Below are positions 7,601-31,406 of a stretch of 64,000 nucleotides of DNA, piece by piece; within the stretch, counting starts at the first letter, position 1, and every line of letters begins with the position of its first letter. The notes under the pieces were generated by a model. It searched no databases. It was not told the origin of the DNA and saw only the letters and a list, made by a program, of their open reading frames with translations. Source of the DNA: Candidatus Loosdrechtia aerotolerans (GTDB taxonomy: Bacteria > Planctomycetota > Brocadiia > Brocadiales > Brocadiaceae); contig SOER01000004.1 in NCBI GenBank assembly GCA_021646405.1, positions 1 to 64,000 on the forward strand, written 5' to 3'. A program made the translations under genes and the position numbers.

Positions 7601-7760
7601 CGGTCTGTTACCGATGATGGTATCTACGGACATAGGGGCAGAGATACAGAAGCCGTTAGCAACGGTAATCGTTGGCGGGGTATGCTTTTCGAGTTTTTTA
7701 ACCCTTTTCGTAATTCCAGCCCTCTATCAATGGTTTCCAAAGAATGTTGCGGAGGGATAA
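4647..7760 (+). CDS. HME-family RND heavy-metal efflux pump (CusA/CzcA-like), variant TM4 motif
   Basis: A 1037-residue proton-driven inner-membrane pump of full family length, with 12 predicted TM segments and two large periplasmic loops. Recognisable blocks include [29 protein letters not shown] and ELVAGVRSDIAVKLFGED. The TM4 proton-relay motif, canonically DFGxxxDGAxxxVEN in CzcA, reads GFGNITDSSVCTVEN: the first Asp is Gly (about residue 404), while the second Asp and the Glu remain. ATG 4647 overlaps the adaptor stop; ATG 4668 would begin MVNTVIECALKQRFLV, which fits the family N-terminus better, so the exact start is open. It completes the OMF-adaptor-pump operon. Sequence is closer to CzcA than to Escherichia coli CusA. 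Confidence 0.9.
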   Translation: MLRTLVFMVNTVIECALKQRFLVIIGIGVIIGLGLYYTKMLPIDAVPDVTTNQVQINTEVPGLGPVEVEKLVTFPIEFSMSSLPDITEVRSLSKTGLSQVTVTFEDHVNIYSARQLILERLQTAEAQLPKVFNVRPVMGPVSTGLGEIYQYAVTGEGKDTMELRTIQDWMVRPRLLTTPGVIEVNSFGGFVKQYQVTVDPGKLITYNITLRQVFDALAANNVNAGGQYIEHASEQYLIRGVGLVQSIQDIENIVVFATEEGTPVYIKNVADVVVGPEVRYGAVTRDGNGEAVIGIAMMLKGENSRTMVQKVKQKVKDIRQNLPDGVDIIPFYDRTDLVNNVIHTVITNVTLGIILIVIVLTLAIGNWRVSLLVAFSVPLTVFLTFSGMYYMGIAATVMSVGSLGFGNITDSSVCTVENVIQHLSKRNRNDNHRETIRIAAQEVGRPIFFAVIIIIMIYLPLLTLQGIEGKMFKPVALTVSIAMVSSLFVALVIMPTLCTITFRKGIKTKIHKEESDNRIIRFLKRYYRPLLQKTVFHPRITLIIAVSCFLSSLALIPFLGSEFMPELDEGAIAINVVRLPSVSLKESLELSALIEKTLMKYPEVETVVSKTGRAEIATDPMGQEISDVFVMLKPKETWQTARTKEGLIARMEEDLKKIPGMSYSFSQPIELRVSELVAGVRSDIAVKLFGEDLEVLRPKAEEINSVVSSIRGAEDVKTEQITGLPVMQIKIDRNAIARYGINVSDVQDVITTAIGGKVASQVLEGEMRFDLLVRFVEEARSNIEEIENILISTPGGVLVPLAQLANISIEEGPAQISRENGNRRIVVECNVRNRDIGSFVAEAQKEIRERVDIPEGYYLDWGGQFENMQRARNRLALVIPISMGLIFVLLYMSFRSFKNAALIYVNVPFAATGGIVALFLRSMPLSVPAGVGFISLFGLCVLNGTVMVSSINEFLQEGKETRNTVIEAATTRLRPVLITVVADMIGLLPMMVSTDIGAEIQKPLATVIVGGVCFSSFLTLFVIPALYQWFPKNVAEG

Positions 7761-7787
7761 AGGTAACCGGGGATAAACAGAATATTG

Positions 7788-7892
7788 AACTTGCCGGCTT
7801 GTTCGTTTACCTGTTTGCCCGTTTGCCCGCTTGCTGGCCTGCTGGCCGCTTGTTTGCCGGCCTATTGGCCTTGCGACTTGCTAGCCTGCCGG
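7788..7892 (+). repeat. C/T-rich degenerate CTTGCC repeat tract left of the 115-bp element
   Basis: About 100 bases made of imperfect iterations of words such as CTTGCC, TTGCCCG and CTGCTGGCC, ending directly at the 115-bp palindromic element. Similar tracts abut the copies at 19394 and 20174. Frames through it give Leu/Pro/Ala/Cys-rich translations, which are not credible proteins. Confidence 0.7.
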
Positions 7893-8007
7893 CTTGTTCC
7901 CAAACTCTGTTTGGGAACACAATGGGTCTCGAAACTCTGTTTCGAGGATGAAACACGAAACAGAGTTTCGTTTGAAATGGTGTTCCCAAACAGAGTTTGG
8001 GAACAAG
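7893..8007. repeat. 115-bp nested palindromic element, copy 1 (inverted core)
   Basis: Structure A-B-b-a: outer hairpins are perfect 11-bp stems with 3-base loops (TGTTCCCAAAC-TCT-GTTTGGGAACA, and its complement with AGA loop at the right end), inner hairpins have 6-bp stems CGAAAC/GTTTCG with the same TCT or AGA loops. The whole element is flanked by CTT...AAG. The non-palindromic core is the reverse complement of copies 2 and 4, so this copy is inserted in the opposite orientation. It lies between the RND pump and the YnfA gene. Confidence 0.92.
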
Positions 8008-8061
8008 AGGAAGATGAAGTTCAATTATCACGAAATGTAATATGGGGGAAAAACGGAAAAA

Positions 8062-8388
8062 ATGAATAGTATTACATCAATACTCTTTTTCATCCTTGCA
8101 GGATTATGCGAGATCGGAGGCGGGTACCTGATATGGCTCTGGCTCAGGGAGGACAAGAGCATCTGGCTCGGTTTATTTGGGGCTATCGTGCTCATTGCTT
8201 ATGGGGTAATACCGACCTTGCAGCCTGCAAACTTTGGACGGGTTTATGCCGCTTACGGTGGTATCTTTGTTGCATTATCCATCCTCTGGGGATGGCAGGT
8301 TGATAAGATTATTCCTGATAGGTTTGATTTGATCGGTGGTTGTGTTGTACTGTTCGGCGTTTTTATCATCATGTACTGGCCAAGGTAA
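8062..8388 (+). CDS. YnfA/UPF0060 family small membrane protein
   Basis: A 108-residue integral membrane protein with four predicted TM helices, the usual length of the YnfA (UPF0060) family. The family signatures are present: [15 protein letters not shown] near the N-terminus, [20 protein letters not shown] in the middle and the GxxxxxYWPR end. YnfA proteins are distant relatives of small-multidrug-resistance exporters; transported substrates are not settled. ATG 8062 follows GGGGGAAAAACGG. The gene sits between repeat copy 1 and the P-type ATPase in the metal-resistance island, which suggests a role in efflux or envelope stress, but this is contextual only. Confidence 0.9.
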
Positions 8389-8542
8389 GGACAAACGGCC
8401 GCATTTGCATCAGGCAAGGAATAAATACATTGGTTTTTTATAGTACTGTGAGCAATTACGTAAATTTGACCTGGGGAGGGTTTTGCTGTTATTATTGTGG
8501 TAAATACTATTATTGTTTTTCAGCATTTCCGGGAAGAGAATA

Positions 8543-10683: not shown

Positions 10684-10798
10684 CTTGTTCCCAAACTCTG
10701 TTTGGGAACACCATTTTACACGAAACTCTGTTTCGTGTTTCATCCTCGAAACAGAGTTTCGATGTCCATTGTGTTCCCAAACAGAGTTTGGGAACAAG
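10684..10798. repeat. 115-bp nested palindromic element, copy 2
   Basis: Same four-hairpin structure as the copy at 7893, with the core in the opposite orientation to that copy. It is nearly identical to the copy at 19394: I count two differences in 115 bases. A further half-arm, GTTTGGGAACAAG, follows at 10823-10835. It lies between the P-type ATPase and the zinc-ribbon gene. Confidence 0.92.
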
Positions 10799-10884
10799 AG
10801 GAAGAGGCAGACTCAGCACATGGTTTGGGAACAAGAAGAATTTAAAAATAACACTTTATCGTAGAGTAAGAAGGAGGTAAACAC

Positions 10885-12731: not shown

Positions 12732-16241
<3,510 letters not shown>

Positions 16242-16435: not shown

Positions 16436-19102
16436 CTACTCCACAATAACAATGAGGTAATTGTCATTCCGAAATACCTGATGTATCAGGCGTTTCAGGT
16501 CTTGCGGGGTAACGTCTTTCAGTTTTTCATTATAGAGGTCATCTGCTTCAGGTGTTCTTCCCTCGAGAAGTTCCATGCTAATGTAGTAAGCCTGGCTCAC
16601 GCGGTCGAGTCTCCTCATGCCACGTCTTCCAATGGCGGCATTGATCGTCTTCTGCACTTCATCGGCCGTGAAAACGGCTTTCCGTAAACGGGAGATTTCT
16701 TTCTGTATACCAGTAGTGGCACGCTCAATATTCTCTGGCCGGGTACCCATGGTAATCAGGTACCACCGTGCATTATGATATTTCTGAGTACTTACACCAA
16801 TAGTATAGGCAAGTCCCTGTTTCTCTCTCAGATTGAATGCAAGCCGGTCAGAAAAAAGGTCCATAAGAATATGGAGTGCTGGTCTGTCCTCTTCTGCAAT
16901 ATCAAAGGTATTTGCAAGAGCAATATACGACTGTGGTTTGCCCGACTTCTCATGGAGTGTGGTACCGAGTTTACCAAATTGCGGTGTAAACTCCGGAGGC
17001 TGCCATCCGGATTCTCCCCATGTACCGCCAAAATGATTTTTGACAAGATCCATTACGCCTTCGATTGATTGATTGCCCGAGATAACAATAATAAGGTTTG
17101 CGGGGTTGTAAAATTTATGGTGGAATGCTTGCATCTCCTGCACCCGGACCTGTCCCAGCCTTTCCGCATCGCCGAGCAGCCAGCCAAACCCAGGATTTTC
17201 TGCAAACAGATTATTATATAAGAGCCGGTACGCAATCTTTGGTGTACTTACCGTTTCCGCTGCAGAAAGTGATATAACCTCTTTTTTTACCCGCTCTAAG
17301 GCTTCTTCTGTAAGGAGCGGCCGCGATATCATTTCTGTAAGCAGGCCGAGGCCTTTTTCAAAAAAGGTATCAATTAATTTCAAGCGGATGTAAGCAAACC
17401 GGGGGGAGTGGTAATAGTCATCGAAGGGTATAAAAGGACTGTCATGCAATTTCAATTCAGCCCCAATAGATTCAAATGCCTGATACAGTGCCCTGCCGGG
17501 ATGTTCTTCTGTTCCACCCTCAAGGAGCATTCGCTGTAAAATTTCTGTCATTCCCCATGCATCTCTGCCCTCGCTTACACTGCGTTCTTTGGCTAATACA
17601 TGGATACCGATGACCCGGCTGTCCCTGTTCTCTTTCACTGCGACCGTTAAACCGTTTTCCAGGGTTTCTGTATGATAGCGGTTGGGTGACCGTGTTTCAG
17701 AAACATCGGATATTTGACGAGGAGGTGACATTATCGTAACTACGGGTATTTGTGTGCGAAGATACTGCTCTGCTGCTTTCTGAATAGATGCCGGCGTCGT
17801 TTGCATTAACCCGTCCTGATAATCCTGGAGGAATGAATAACCGCCTGCCGCAAGATAGCCTGATTTCATCATTCCATAGTAGTGAAGCTGTTCCTGGAGA
17901 TAAATTTCATGCGTTTGTTGTGCTACCAGGGTTGATGTTATTTCGCCGGCAGGAACTGGATTTTTTGCCATATCCTCTACAGTTCGTGTAATCAATGCTA
18001 TGATACGGTCCACATCGGCACCTGCAGGTAGTTCTGCAAAAATTTGTAAGAGAGAAAAATCACGGTTAAAATCCAGACTTGCACTAATCATGTTCACGAG
18101 ATTTTTATGAGGTTTCTGTCTGAAAAGTGTTTTCAGCACCGAGTTTTCTTTGCCGCCGAGGAATTCTGCCAGGAGTTTTAACGACGGGAAATCTACTGCA
18201 GTCGGCGGCGGTAAGAGGTAACCCATGGTAAGATAACAGCGGTCTTCCGGGAATTTTTCTCCTGCATTTACCCGGGTAATACGCAAACGCAATGGCTGCC
18301 CGGGCTGGACAGGTTTGTGTTCCGGGAGTGGTCCGGGTGGATAGTGTCCATATTTTTCTTCAATCAGCTCCAGCATTTCTGATGGTACAAAATCACCGAT
18401 TACCATCAGGGTCATATTATTGGGTACATACCAGGTTTTGTAATACGCAAATACCTGATCGCGTTGTAAATTCAGAATGGTAGAGACTGTTCCAAGGATA
18501 GGACGCTCATACGGTGTACCGGAAAAAAGGATTTTCTGAAAATAATTCTGTACCTGATATGTTGGTTGGTTCGCGGATTTACCAATCTCCTCAAGAACGA
18601 TACCGCGCTCTTTCTCGAATTTTTCCGGAGGTAATGTAGAGTTAAACAACATGTCTGCCTGGATATCCATCCCCTGAGCGATATATTCTTTTGGCATGAG
18701 GATCATATAATTCGTATGATCCATGGTCGTGTGGGCATTATTGTAACCGCCGTAAAAATCCATTTCACTGTAAATCTGTTCCTGGGTACGATTTTTTGTG
18801 CCGTTGAAGAGCAGGTGTTCAAGAAAATGGGCTGTTCCGTTACTGGCAGCATCTTCGTTGCGGCTGCCGGCTTTTACCATAGTAACTGCCGCAATCATAG
18901 GATTGGCGTGATTCTCGATGAGGATAACCTCCATGCCGTTATCAAGGTAGAATACGGAGGCCTGCCGGGTTCTTTGAAACAGTTCAGGTGGAGTATTTCC
19001 GGAGTCTTTCCCATAGCATATCAATTGGCTGATGAGGGAGAATAGGCTCAGGGTTACAACACAGGGGGTGAAAACGGTTTTTATTTTTTTCAGAATGTAC
19101 AT
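16436..19102 (-). CDS. M16 family zinc metallopeptidase (two-domain, PqqL/insulinase type), secreted
   Basis: An 888-residue protein with an N-terminal signal segment (MYILKKIKTVFTPCVVTLSLF). The first M16 half has the inverted zinc motif HFLEH (about residue 92) and, downstream, the ligand region ERGIVLEEIGK. The second half (from about 470) has the M16 fold but no HxxEH, as is usual for the inactive clamp domain of single-chain M16 enzymes. The predicted location is periplasmic. Such enzymes degrade peptides inside a closed chamber. The gene stands alone and convergent to the RND pump. The start ATG at 19102 is chosen because it immediately precedes the signal peptide. Confidence 0.9.
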   Translation of the reverse strand: MYILKKIKTVFTPCVVTLSLFSLISQLICYGKDSGNTPPELFQRTRQASVFYLDNGMEVILIENHANPMIAAVTMVKAGSRNEDAASNGTAHFLEHLLFNGTKNRTQEQIYSEMDFYGGYNNAHTTMDHTNYMILMPKEYIAQGMDIQADMLFNSTLPPEKFEKERGIVLEEIGKSANQPTYQVQNYFQKILFSGTPYERPILGTVSTILNLQRDQVFAYYKTWYVPNNMTLMVIGDFVPSEMLELIEEKYGHYPPGPLPEHKPVQPGQPLRLRITRVNAGEKFPEDRCYLTMGYLLPPPTAVDFPSLKLLAEFLGGKENSVLKTLFRQKPHKNLVNMISASLDFNRDFSLLQIFAELPAGADVDRIIALITRTVEDMAKNPVPAGEITSTLVAQQTHEIYLQEQLHYYGMMKSGYLAAGGYSFLQDYQDGLMQTTPASIQKAAEQYLRTQIPVVTIMSPPRQISDVSETRSPNRYHTETLENGLTVAVKENRDSRVIGIHVLAKERSVSEGRDAWGMTEILQRMLLEGGTEEHPGRALYQAFESIGAELKLHDSPFIPFDDYYHSPRFAYIRLKLIDTFFEKGLGLLTEMISRPLLTEEALERVKKEVISLSAAETVSTPKIAYRLLYNNLFAENPGFGWLLGDAERLGQVRVQEMQAFHHKFYNPANLIIVISGNQSIEGVMDLVKNHFGGTWGESGWQPPEFTPQFGKLGTTLHEKSGKPQSYIALANTFDIAEEDRPALHILMDLFSDRLAFNLREKQGLAYTIGVSTQKYHNARWYLITMGTRPENIERATTGIQKEISRLRKAVFTADEVQKTINAAIGRRGMRRLDRVSQAYYISMELLEGRTPEADDLYNEKLKDVTPQDLKRLIHQVFRNDNYLIVIVE

Positions 19103-19261
19103 GGATTTTAAGGAATAAAAAAATGTGCGAGTATATATTTTACGTACATTAAAAACAAGTTATGGAAATTATTTTCAAAGACTGATATATCGTAATATGA
19201 AAGTTAACATGTTCTGTTCGGTCTCACCTGTTGATTACTATAGCACTCCTCACTCAACGTT

Positions 19262-19393
19262 TGCAGAAAGTTTGCTCACCTGCTTTACTTGCCTCTGCTC
19301 ATCTGCTTGCCTGTATACCTGCCACCGCCTGCTTGCCCTGCCTGCCCCACCTACTTGCCCCAACCTACTTGCCTCGTCTGCCTACCCCACCTA
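19262..19393 (+). repeat. C/T-rich degenerate CTTGCC repeat tract left of copy 4
   Basis: About 130 bases of imperfect CTTGCC, CTGCTTGCC and CCTACTTGCC iterations on the plus strand end directly at the 115-bp element. The tract is the counterpart of the one at 7788. The preceding 19103-19261 holds nothing recognised except the upstream region of the M16 gene. Three overlapping frames through this tract are repeat translations, not genes. Confidence 0.7.
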
Positions 19394-19508
19394 CTTGTTC
19401 CCAAACTCTGTTTGGGAACACCATTTCACACGAAACTCTGTTTCGTGTTTCATCCTCGAAACAGAGTTTCGAGGTCCATTGTGTTCCCAAACAGAGTTTG
19501 GGAACAAG
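19394..19508. repeat. 115-bp nested palindromic element, copy 4 (flanks transposase remnant)
   Basis: Four-hairpin element as above. Its right edge lies 49 bases from the stop of the RAYT pseudogene. A further half-arm GTTTGGGAACAAG follows at 19520-19532. Near-identical to the copy at 10684. Confidence 0.92.
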
Positions 19509-19557
19509 AGGATGGCAGGGTTTGGGAACAAGAGGAGGAGATGAGAAATAAATATTT

Positions 19558-20093
19558 TCATAAAACTAATTCATCAATCTGAATAATTGAATGATCATTG
19601 GAATAGTAATTTCTGTAAGAACTGTAGCACCAGTTTTCAGGCAAATCAATAAGACCACGCCTTACCGGATTGTAATGAATATATTCAATCTTTTGTCTTA
19701 GCATTTCTTCATTCAACATCAGTTGTGGATGGAAGCCCTCCTGCCATATCTGATAATTACATCCTGTCTTGTATTTCTTCTTATAAAATGCAAGCTGACT
19801 TAACAGCCATTGCTTGCGGTCCTGTTTTAACTGATCAATGTCTCTTTTGCTGTGAACTTCTTAAATGAAGTCAATGTAGCTGATAACTCAGGTGCCTCTG
19901 TAAGAAGATGGATGTGATTGTCCATAATCACAAATGCATAAAGTTTTAATCCTTTATGTGTTTTGCAATATTTAATTGATTCTACGATTATATCACAGTA
20001 TTTTTGAGAGGTAAAAATAGGCATCCACTCGACAATAGTAGAAGTTACAAAATAGATCCCATCCTTTTCTATAATTTTATACCTGGTTCTCAT
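19558..20093 (-). pseudogene. REP-associated tyrosine transposase (RAYT, IS200-like Y1 family), frameshifted
   Basis: Frame one runs from ATG 20093 for 88 codons: IIEKDGIYFVTSTIVEW, then the HUH-type metal motif DNHIHLL, then SFKKFTAKE, and stops at 19827. A second frame carries the rest to a stop at 19558-19560: DQLKQDRKQWLLSQLAFYKK, then CNYQIWQEGFHPQ, then KIEYIHYNPVRRGLI. Joined, they give about 178 residues with all the blocks of a RAYT-like protein, so a single-base indel in the region 19827-19862 has broken the gene. Family members nick and move REP palindromes as single strands. The remnant is bracketed by a 115-bp element on one side and a solo outer hairpin on the other, the layout of a REPtron. 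Confidence 0.85.
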
Positions 20094-20103
20094 TTTTATC
20101 CCC

Positions 20104-20173
20104 TTTGACCAGCCTACTCACCTACATACCTTTTCGCCTGCTCATCTATTGCCCCGCCTGCTTGCCCTGCCTG
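20104..20173 (+). repeat. C/T-rich degenerate repeat tract left of solo hairpin
   Basis: About 70 bases of CCTGCTTGCC, CCTACTCACC and CGCCTGCTC iterations, again ending directly at a TTGTTCCC arm. It is the third instance of this association. Confidence 0.65.
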
Positions 20174-20202
20174 CTTGTTCCCAAACAGAGTTTGGAAACA
20201 AG
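20174..20202. repeat. Solo outer hairpin of the 115-bp element, copy 5
   Basis: The sequence from CTTGTTCCCAAAC through AGA to GTTTGGAAACAAG is a single outer hairpin with one mismatch (GGAAAC for GGGAAC). It lies 81 bases upstream of the RAYT start, so hairpins of the same family flank the transposase remnant on both sides. Confidence 0.88.
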
Positions 20203-20254
20203 ATGACCCTGACCCCTGAACCAGAGAAATTACTAAACCGTTTAGTCCTCCCCG

Positions 20255-20581
20255 TTATTCAACAGGTATACCGGAGAGGTTTTGTTTAGTGTCCGATACC
20301 CTGGTTTTTGCCTTTTTCTTTTTATAAATAAGCATAACATTGCGCAGGTAAATAAAAAGCCCTGTGCACTGCCCTATAATAAATACAGGATCCCGTCGAT
20401 ACAGTGCATAAGTTAGCAATATGGCACTCCCTCCCATACTTAAATACCAGAATACCTCCGGAATAATACTTTCTCCCCGTTTTTCCGAAATAACCCACTG
20501 GACAAAAAACCGGGACCCGAACAGTAACTGACCAATGAGACCCAGGATAATCCACACGTTGAGATGTGTTGCAGAATGCAT
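20255..20581 (-). CDS. LAB_N-domain membrane protein (lipid-A-disaccharide-synthase N-terminal-like)
   Basis: A 108-residue protein with three predicted TM helices and the LAB_N signature: IGQLLFGSRFFVQWVISEK, then SIIPEVFWYLSMGGSAILL, then YALYRRDPVFIIGQ. The domain is named for its occurrence at the N-terminus of some LpxB proteins, but stand-alone copies are common next to glycosyltransferases. Its start overlaps the stop of the upstream glycosyltransferase by one base (TAATG), so the two are translationally coupled. A role in handling a polyprenyl- or lipid-linked sugar with that enzyme is plausible but unproven. Confidence 0.87.
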   Translation of the reverse strand: MHSATHLNVWIILGLIGQLLFGSRFFVQWVISEKRGESIIPEVFWYLSMGGSAILLTYALYRRDPVFIIGQCTGLFIYLRNVMLIYKKKKAKTRVSDTKQNLSGIPVE

Positions 20582-21300
20582 TATTGTTCAACCTCATAGT
20601 TAAGTTTGCGCTTTTTCATCCATCGTACAACCAATAAATCTACAAATGCCCTGAATGCCCGGTTCGATATTCCGTATTTTGATTTTCCAAATTTCCTCGG
20701 ATAATGATTTACAACGATTTCTGTAACCGTAAAACCTTCCATTTTAAATAAGGTAGGGAGGAACCGGTGCATACCATTGAACAGGGTAATCCTTTCGAGA
20801 CATTCCTTCCGGTACGCCTTCAGGGAGCATCCGGTGTCTTTAATATCTTCCCACGAGAGTTTATTTCTTATAAAATTTGCTACCTGGGAGGAAACACGTT
20901 TGATCCATGGATCGTTTCTTTTCTGTCTCCATCCGCATACCATATCATACGTATTTAATTTTTCAAGTAATTTAGGGATATCAGCGGGATCGTTTTGCAT
21001 GTCGGCATCCATCGAGACGACATATTTTCCCCGGCTGTATTTAAAACCGGCATCCATGGCTGCCGTTTGTCCTGCATTCTTTTTAAAATGAATTGACCGG
21101 AAATATGGGTGTTTGGCGCACCACTCTCTCAATTTTTTGGTACTTCCATCGGTACTTCCATCATCTACAATAATTATCTCGTAATTTTGACCCCGCAGGG
21201 CATTGATAAGAGAATGGCCGAGAAATTCTATCGTATCAACCTCGTTGTAGAGGGGAATTACAACGGAGATGTCCGGATTATTTGATGGGCTTGATATCAT
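20581..21300 (-). CDS. Family 2 glycosyltransferase (DPM1/ArnC-like)
   Basis: A 239-residue GT-A enzyme. Key features: SVVIPLYNEVDTI at the start, IIVDDGSTDGS, the metal-binding DxD in SMDADMQNDP, and a conserved downstream GCSLKAYRKECLER segment. This is the DPM1/ArnC-type subfamily that transfers a sugar from a nucleotide donor to a polyprenyl phosphate. It lacks C-terminal TM helices, so it probably works at the membrane surface with the LAB_N protein encoded next. The acceptor and donor are not determinable. Confidence 0.88.
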   Translation of the reverse strand: MISSPSNNPDISVVIPLYNEVDTIEFLGHSLINALRGQNYEIIIVDDGSTDGSTKKLREWCAKHPYFRSIHFKKNAGQTAAMDAGFKYSRGKYVVSMDADMQNDPADIPKLLEKLNTYDMVCGWRQKRNDPWIKRVSSQVANFIRNKLSWEDIKDTGCSLKAYRKECLERITLFNGMHRFLPTLFKMEGFTVTEIVVNHYPRKFGKSKYGISNRAFRAFVDLLVVRWMKKRKLNYEVEQ

Positions 21301-31295: not shown

Positions 31296-31406
31296 GAAAC
31301 CTCATATCTCTACTACCGCATATTTTTCTGCATGTGTTTTTATAACCTCGCCCAGGCCCATATGCATCAAGTTAGGCCTTCGGCGACTTTTGTCTGTTGT
31401 AAAGAT

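Follow-up and report, generated by a model that had tools for sequence, protein, structure and literature searches.

The window analysed here is a stretch of 64,000 nucleotides from Candidatus Loosdrechtia aerotolerans, an anammox planctomycete of the Brocadiales (contig SOER01000004.1, positions 1 to 64,000 of the forward strand). On its minus strand, at 19558..20093, lies the gene for a REP-associated tyrosine transposase (RAYT), which can be followed from ATG to stop through its ORFs and by alignment with relatives and which has a single frame break. As the preliminary description of this DNA had reported, the gene is situated between a 115-bp element composed of hairpins (19394-19508) and a solo outer hairpin of the same family (20174-20202).

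The RAYT gene and its frame break

The N-terminal half of the gene is an 88-aa ORF (19827..20093, minus strand) that contains the HuH motif NHIH and scores 23.2 bits against Pfam Y1_Tnp (cut-off 23); read from 20093 to 19827, its translation ends in KFTAKETLIS followed by the stop. The frame of the C-terminal half (19561..19860, minus strand) contains the tyrosine motif EYIHYNPV, and this half alone scores 53.1 bits against NCBIfam NF047646. Relatives align throughout both halves (20093..19827 and 19860..19561), which bears out the earlier proposal of a RAYT-like transposase in two frames. DNA alignment with four of these relatives reduces the break, which had been located within 19827-19862, to one missing base in the gap between 19841 and 19840 (19840..19841, minus strand). 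The lesion is not within a homopolymer, and the same alignment reveals no further indel or stop over the full gene. The window copy is thus a broken member of its family, its reading frame interrupted by a one-base deletion, and as the base is lost between the HuH motif and the tyrosine it should yield no working enzyme. Loss of catalytic residues was ruled out as the defect; the HuH motif NHIH and the tyrosine in YIHYNP are both retained, albeit in two frames, and are invariant in sets of 11 and 20 relatives.

Compared with the nearest intact relative (L023, 77% identical over 178 aa), the gene has a dN/dS of about 0.17 (0.15 for the N half and 0.19 for the C half) at a dS of about 0.7, and judging by these substitutions purifying selection acted on both halves until recent times. 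With two constrained halves and a single lesion, the break is either young or an assembly error, since a long-dead gene would have accumulated more lesions; to call the RAYT decayed, as was done previously, is therefore too strong.

Intact relatives score 106.3 and 118.3 bits against NF047646 (REP-associated tyrosine transposase; cut-off 80), with the nearest of them at 106. By sequence the PDB yields a single match, E. coli TnpA_REP (4ER8), which is also the top PDB match (E 2.4e-8) in a fold search with a model of the relative L073 (pLDDT 87.6). On these comparisons the window gene is identified as a RAYT, or TnpA_REP, a Y1 HuH nuclease of known kind. Assignment to an IS200/IS605 insertion sequence was rejected, as profile NF033573 gives 21 bits against a cut-off of 55, and so was assignment to the TIRYTs (subclass 2.1), the protein having 178 aa without a C-terminal HTH extension and the repeats being unlike GGGGWSAS.

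Hairpins and the 115-bp element

The 115-bp element (19394..19508) consists of four hairpins in the order outer, inner, inner' and outer', with a CTTG foot at both ends. On the plus strand the outer hairpin (19397..19419) reads GTTCCCAAAC-TCT-GTTTGGGAAC, and the inner hairpin (19428..19448), ACACGAAAC-TCT-GTTTCGTGT, has the same AAAC tip on a different base. The second inner hairpin (19454..19474, plus strand) reads CCTCGAAAC-AGA-GTTTCGAGG and the second outer hairpin (19483..19505, plus strand) has the loop AGA. Between the element and the RAYT is half an outer hairpin (CAGGGTTTGGGAACAAG; 19516..19532, plus strand) broken at its loop, and the solo outer hairpin (20174..20202), which has CTTG feet and one arm mismatch, lies upstream of the RAYT start. 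The window RAYT has no inner hairpins directly at its own ends.

Other copies of the 115-bp element are found at 7893..8007 (minus strand), 10684..10798 (plus strand) and 12869..12983 (plus strand), so that all four elements of the window are intergenic. The last of these lies between genes but extends over the 5' end assigned mechanically to an ORF; in the region 12870-13050, this 1123-aa RND-type ORF has its mechanical start inside the element, and its true start is probably later. The 23-bp palindrome of the outer hairpin gives nine matches in the window and none in shuffles, and in the 3.26-Mb genome it gives 55 matches, 46 of them perfect, against none for a reversed-pattern control. Eighteen copies of the 115-bp element have a column identity of 97%. 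Folded as single-stranded DNA the element is far more stable than shuffled sequences (z -12.2), and in the inner stems of the 18 copies seven cells are changed on both sides, which 1 of 500 shuffles matched. Covariation among copies is slight, and these compensatory changes modestly favour the view that the hairpin is under selection. No Rfam family matches the palindromes.

Several other features of these repeats were observed. Half palindromes broken at the loop occur at 10824-10835 as well as at 19516-19532 in the window, and in L165, L175 and L180, with several fused to one unrelated sequence, CAGGCTGGGTCAAATG. Among 150-bp stretches of the window, the two richest in CTTG (7751-7892 and 19251-19393) are directly to the left of two 115-bp elements, and genome G005 has a CGAG tandem array to the right of its RAYT. 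A general rule that foot copies are enriched in outside flanks (57 against 32.8) was considered and dropped because a single locus contributes 16 of the 57.

Linkage of RAYT type and hairpin type

In the three nearest intact relatives, all in Brocadiales and 71-77% identical (genomes G020, G032 and G005), the window palindrome adjoins the gene. More widely, 100 loci with related RAYTs were compared, representing about 12 phyla (a few records are present twice, and the phylum labels are those of the MAG submitters); in 85 of them hairpins of the TTCC type lie within 300 nt of the gene. Their density is about 47-fold higher near the RAYT (180 in 59 kb) than beyond 800 nt from it (22 in 343 kb). 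When the tip is defined as the last three stem bases, 13 forms are present, and on a RAYT tree of 88 rows, from which duplicates were removed, the tip changes 18 times compared with a mean of 43.6 and a minimum of 39 in shuffled data, although the shuffling ignores near-copies, which add to the signal. Across the 59 genomes of the order, the palindrome is present in all five genomes with the window RAYT type and in 17 of the 54 without it (Fisher p 0.005). On these comparisons the link between RAYT clade and palindrome is real, yet its presence in those 17 genomes indicates that palindromes outlast the gene or travel without it. The claim that the RAYT adjoins its cognate palindromes is therefore upheld, both by the shared palindrome of the 71-77% identical relatives and by the way the tip follows the RAYT tree. 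The preliminary description had let its reading depend on there being an intact relative or a phylogenetic link between RAYT and palindromes; the relatives are intact and the link is present.

The ends of these elements have a common anatomy. The tetranucleotide flanking the hairpin on the gene-distal side is CTCG in 83 of the 124 hairpins of related RAYT loci, the gene-proximal one is mostly TGCG or TGCA, and bases farther outward are unconserved; in the window genome this foot has the form CTTG. The foot, CTYG, was recognised after inspection rather than predicted, and it occupies the position of the GTAG guide in known REPs; work published in 2021 on how REPs are recognised (PMC8266576) demonstrated that guide role. 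In 35 of 75 loci there is a second hairpin with the tip of its own locus but a different base, against 1.2 expected from the tips of other loci. Of 45 such pairs, 31 have the inner hairpin closer to the gene than the outer one, and 36 have centres 26-32 nt apart. The full order of outer, inner, RAYT, inner' and outer' is seen in L025 of genome G005. As so many ends have a same-tip second hairpin about 30 nt away, the 115-bp element looks like a RAYT element without its gene, consisting of the same two ends and resembling, on its sequence, a non-autonomous derivative such as a REPIN or MITE.

Within the Loosdrechtia assembly, which is 99.4% complete, no intact RAYT of the window clade was found elsewhere, and the clade is represented only by remnants on contigs C60 and C27. 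The C60 copy (L060; 4541-5362) is a second RAYT of the group, has the GTTCCAACGC tip type like an intact one in G001, and is split by an insertion of ~290 bp; that on C27 is a RAYT fragment. The suggestion that the RAYT might act from an intact copy elsewhere in the genome therefore found no support in this assembly as far as its own clade is concerned. The window's own contig, C44, does encode an intact 234-aa RAYT of another clade at 113.2-113.9 kb (NF047646, 87 bits). In the surrounding region (L002, C44:112057-115332; ORF 1141-1842), GTAG double-foot hairpins are located at 1073, 1869, 2041 and 2119, with one at 1608 inside the ORF, and such GTAG...CTAC hairpins beside and within the gene are the pattern described for subclass 2.4.

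Origin and spread of the repeats

The locus holds a RAYT gene flanked by palindromes that recur between the genes of the genome, which is what characterizes a REPtron. We have good confidence in the reading that it is one, in which a gene for a Y1 HuH nuclease carries hairpin ends of its own, that the gene is broken, and that the 115-bp element is its gene-less derivative. The typical end among relatives is two hairpins with the same tip, the outer with CTYG as its foot and GTTCCC as its base, the inner adjoining the gene. By analogy with studied RAYTs and Y1 HuH enzymes, the RAYT would bind these hairpins in single-stranded DNA and use the CTYG tetranucleotide as a guide for choosing the cut site, and the tyrosine would cut and join the ends, such that the element is moved or copied, also in trans. 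Two hairpins per end would suit a dimer. The window gene is not expected to provide a functional enzyme and has probably ceased to drive the family.

How far the RAYT accounts for the present copies is a separate matter. The genome also contains an unrelated dispersed repeat with the TIR CATATGCATCAAGCTAAG, of which 79 ends are found at up to two mismatches (for example at 12823-12840 and 31359-31376 in the window and at C6:58130-58373). Its interiors are very varied and it often contains the palindromes. The proposal that the RAYT was the source of the family thus stands only in part: a TIR of this kind lies no more than 180 bp away from 25 of the 36 palindrome places, and with many copies inside this repeat the RAYT cannot be credited with all of them. 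One possibility, compatible with the REPtron reading and to which we assign a substantial but lesser chance, is that the TIR repeat spread most of the genome copies with the palindromes as passengers, the RAYT having made few. The 79 TIR copies and the repetition of longer flanks agree with this. The other 11 of the 36 places have no TIR nearby, however, and the two families are separable, with 129 TIRs and no palindrome in G012 and palindromes but no TIR in G015, G020 and G022 (TIR counts are 63-129 in genus g5 and 0 in G001, which is of the same genus as the window genome). The TIR repeat also leaves the link of RAYT and tip unexplained.

Empty sites were sought for the same elements. The REPtron of G005 is missing at the matching place of G012, a second species of one genus, which represents a gain or a loss and is neutral as to mechanism; no clean empty site was found in G012, where the junction sequence lacks homology. 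Neither was a clean empty site found in G001, where the REPtron flanks are at two separate places. When window 18600-21200 is compared with G001, the flanks match near 428 kb and 2952 kb, so that synteny is broken at the REPtron. The window interval 7741-8535 corresponds to 33 bp in G001, with no clean junction found, and TIR repeats without palindromes could not be used as empty sites because their interiors are too varied.

The remaining alternatives concern the break and the source of the hairpins. We regard it as unlikely that the frame break arose in sequencing or assembly and that the gene is in reality intact and active, although this is the sole lesion and both halves are constrained; the gap lies outside any homopolymer, and the same genome has the broken RAYTs of C60 and C27, which indicate that loss is usual here. 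Frames joined by a -1 slip on AAAA could also suggest a programmed frameshift giving a fused protein, to which we give the least weight of all, since full-length relatives are unbroken with nearly identical bases at the site and a two-codon slippery heptamer is absent. It is improbable that the host retains the palindromes for a function of its own, for instance as two-way transcription terminators or to stabilise RNA: they do form strong hairpins (z -12) and all four window elements are intergenic, but the palindrome has no copies in the same-genus G001 compared with 46 here, it is tied to a RAYT type across phyla, and it has no Rfam match. Movement of the window palindromes in trans by the RAYT at C44:113.2-113.9 kb is very improbable; that gene is intact, is on the same contig and scores 87 bits, but it has its own GTAG...CTAC hairpins with different stems.

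Relation to known REP systems

Three features look new: the foot CTYG, the double hairpin with its shared tip, and the link of tip and RAYT over about 12 phylum labels. Searches for the full palindromes (as exact 21-mers) in the main text of openly licensed papers found no occurrence, and with shorter fragments no title of relevance came up. Together with the two-hairpin end and the tip-protein link, the foot would give the RAYTs of subclass 2.6, or group 5, a defined substrate, so that recognition could be tested with about a dozen tip types naturally paired with their enzymes. The window copy itself would represent a REP family that has only recently lost its enzyme, and could be useful for estimating how long repeats persist without it.

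Compared with the E. coli REPtron (TnpA_REP, 4ER8), the window system shares the fold, the HuH motif and tyrosine, the W-Q pair, and palindromes that flank the gene and are scattered between genes. It differs in that the GTAG foot is missing, the stretch with the GTAG-reading residues is different in the alignment with 4ER8, and the stems are perfect rather than bulged. The GT[AG]G foot of canonical REPs is absent here, and with CTTG in this genome and CTCG in most relatives this is not a canonical GTAG REP; RAYTs of subclass 2.6 have likewise been reported without GTAG. The double-foot GTAG REPs of subclass 2.4 are similar in being symmetric palindromes with a foot and its complement, but their foot is GT[AG]G in place of the CTTG seen in the window family. 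REPINs (Bertels and Rainey 2011; PMC3116915) are also inverted REPs that form one non-autonomous unit, but have two of them, whereas the element here is about 115 bp with four hairpins of two kinds. Di Nocera 2013 (PMC3733652) described TIRtrons and two super-families of palindromes, GTAG and CGTC. In common with the present family, these have short palindromes that end in a tetranucleotide, or RAYT genes accompanied by inverted repeats; the window family is neither GTAG, CGTC nor GGGGWSAS. Membership of the CGTC family, which has a CGTC tetranucleotide and no RAYT, was rejected, as here the foot is CTYG and a RAYT is present.

The closest described group is subclass 2.6 of Quentin et al. 2018 (PMC6006769), equivalent to Bertels group 5, which is described as mostly from Bacteroidetes and lacks GT[AG]G, having instead "atypical secondary structures" that the main text leaves undefined. 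The window protein agrees with its motifs in length (178 aa compared with about 179), in NHIH (NH[LIV]H), in WQ and in YSS (the SS tail motif), and has YIHYNP where its relatives have YIH[YNS]NP and the published consensus is YIH[QN]NP. Both systems have flanking structures without GT[AG]G and copies elsewhere in the genome. The Bacteroidetes label is absent among the best 80 named relatives listed. Unlike subclass 2.6 as described, the window clade is present in about 12 phyla and has a CTYG foot, double hairpins with a shared tip, and tips that follow the RAYT tree. On balance we favour, albeit with less assurance than the REPtron reading, the view that these comprise a third large class of REPs beside GTAG and CGTC, distributed over about a dozen phyla, with a CTYG foot, a GTTCC base and two shared-tip hairpins ~30 nt apart, in which the tip would be the specificity code for a 2.6-like RAYT clade and the 115-bp element the gene-less form.
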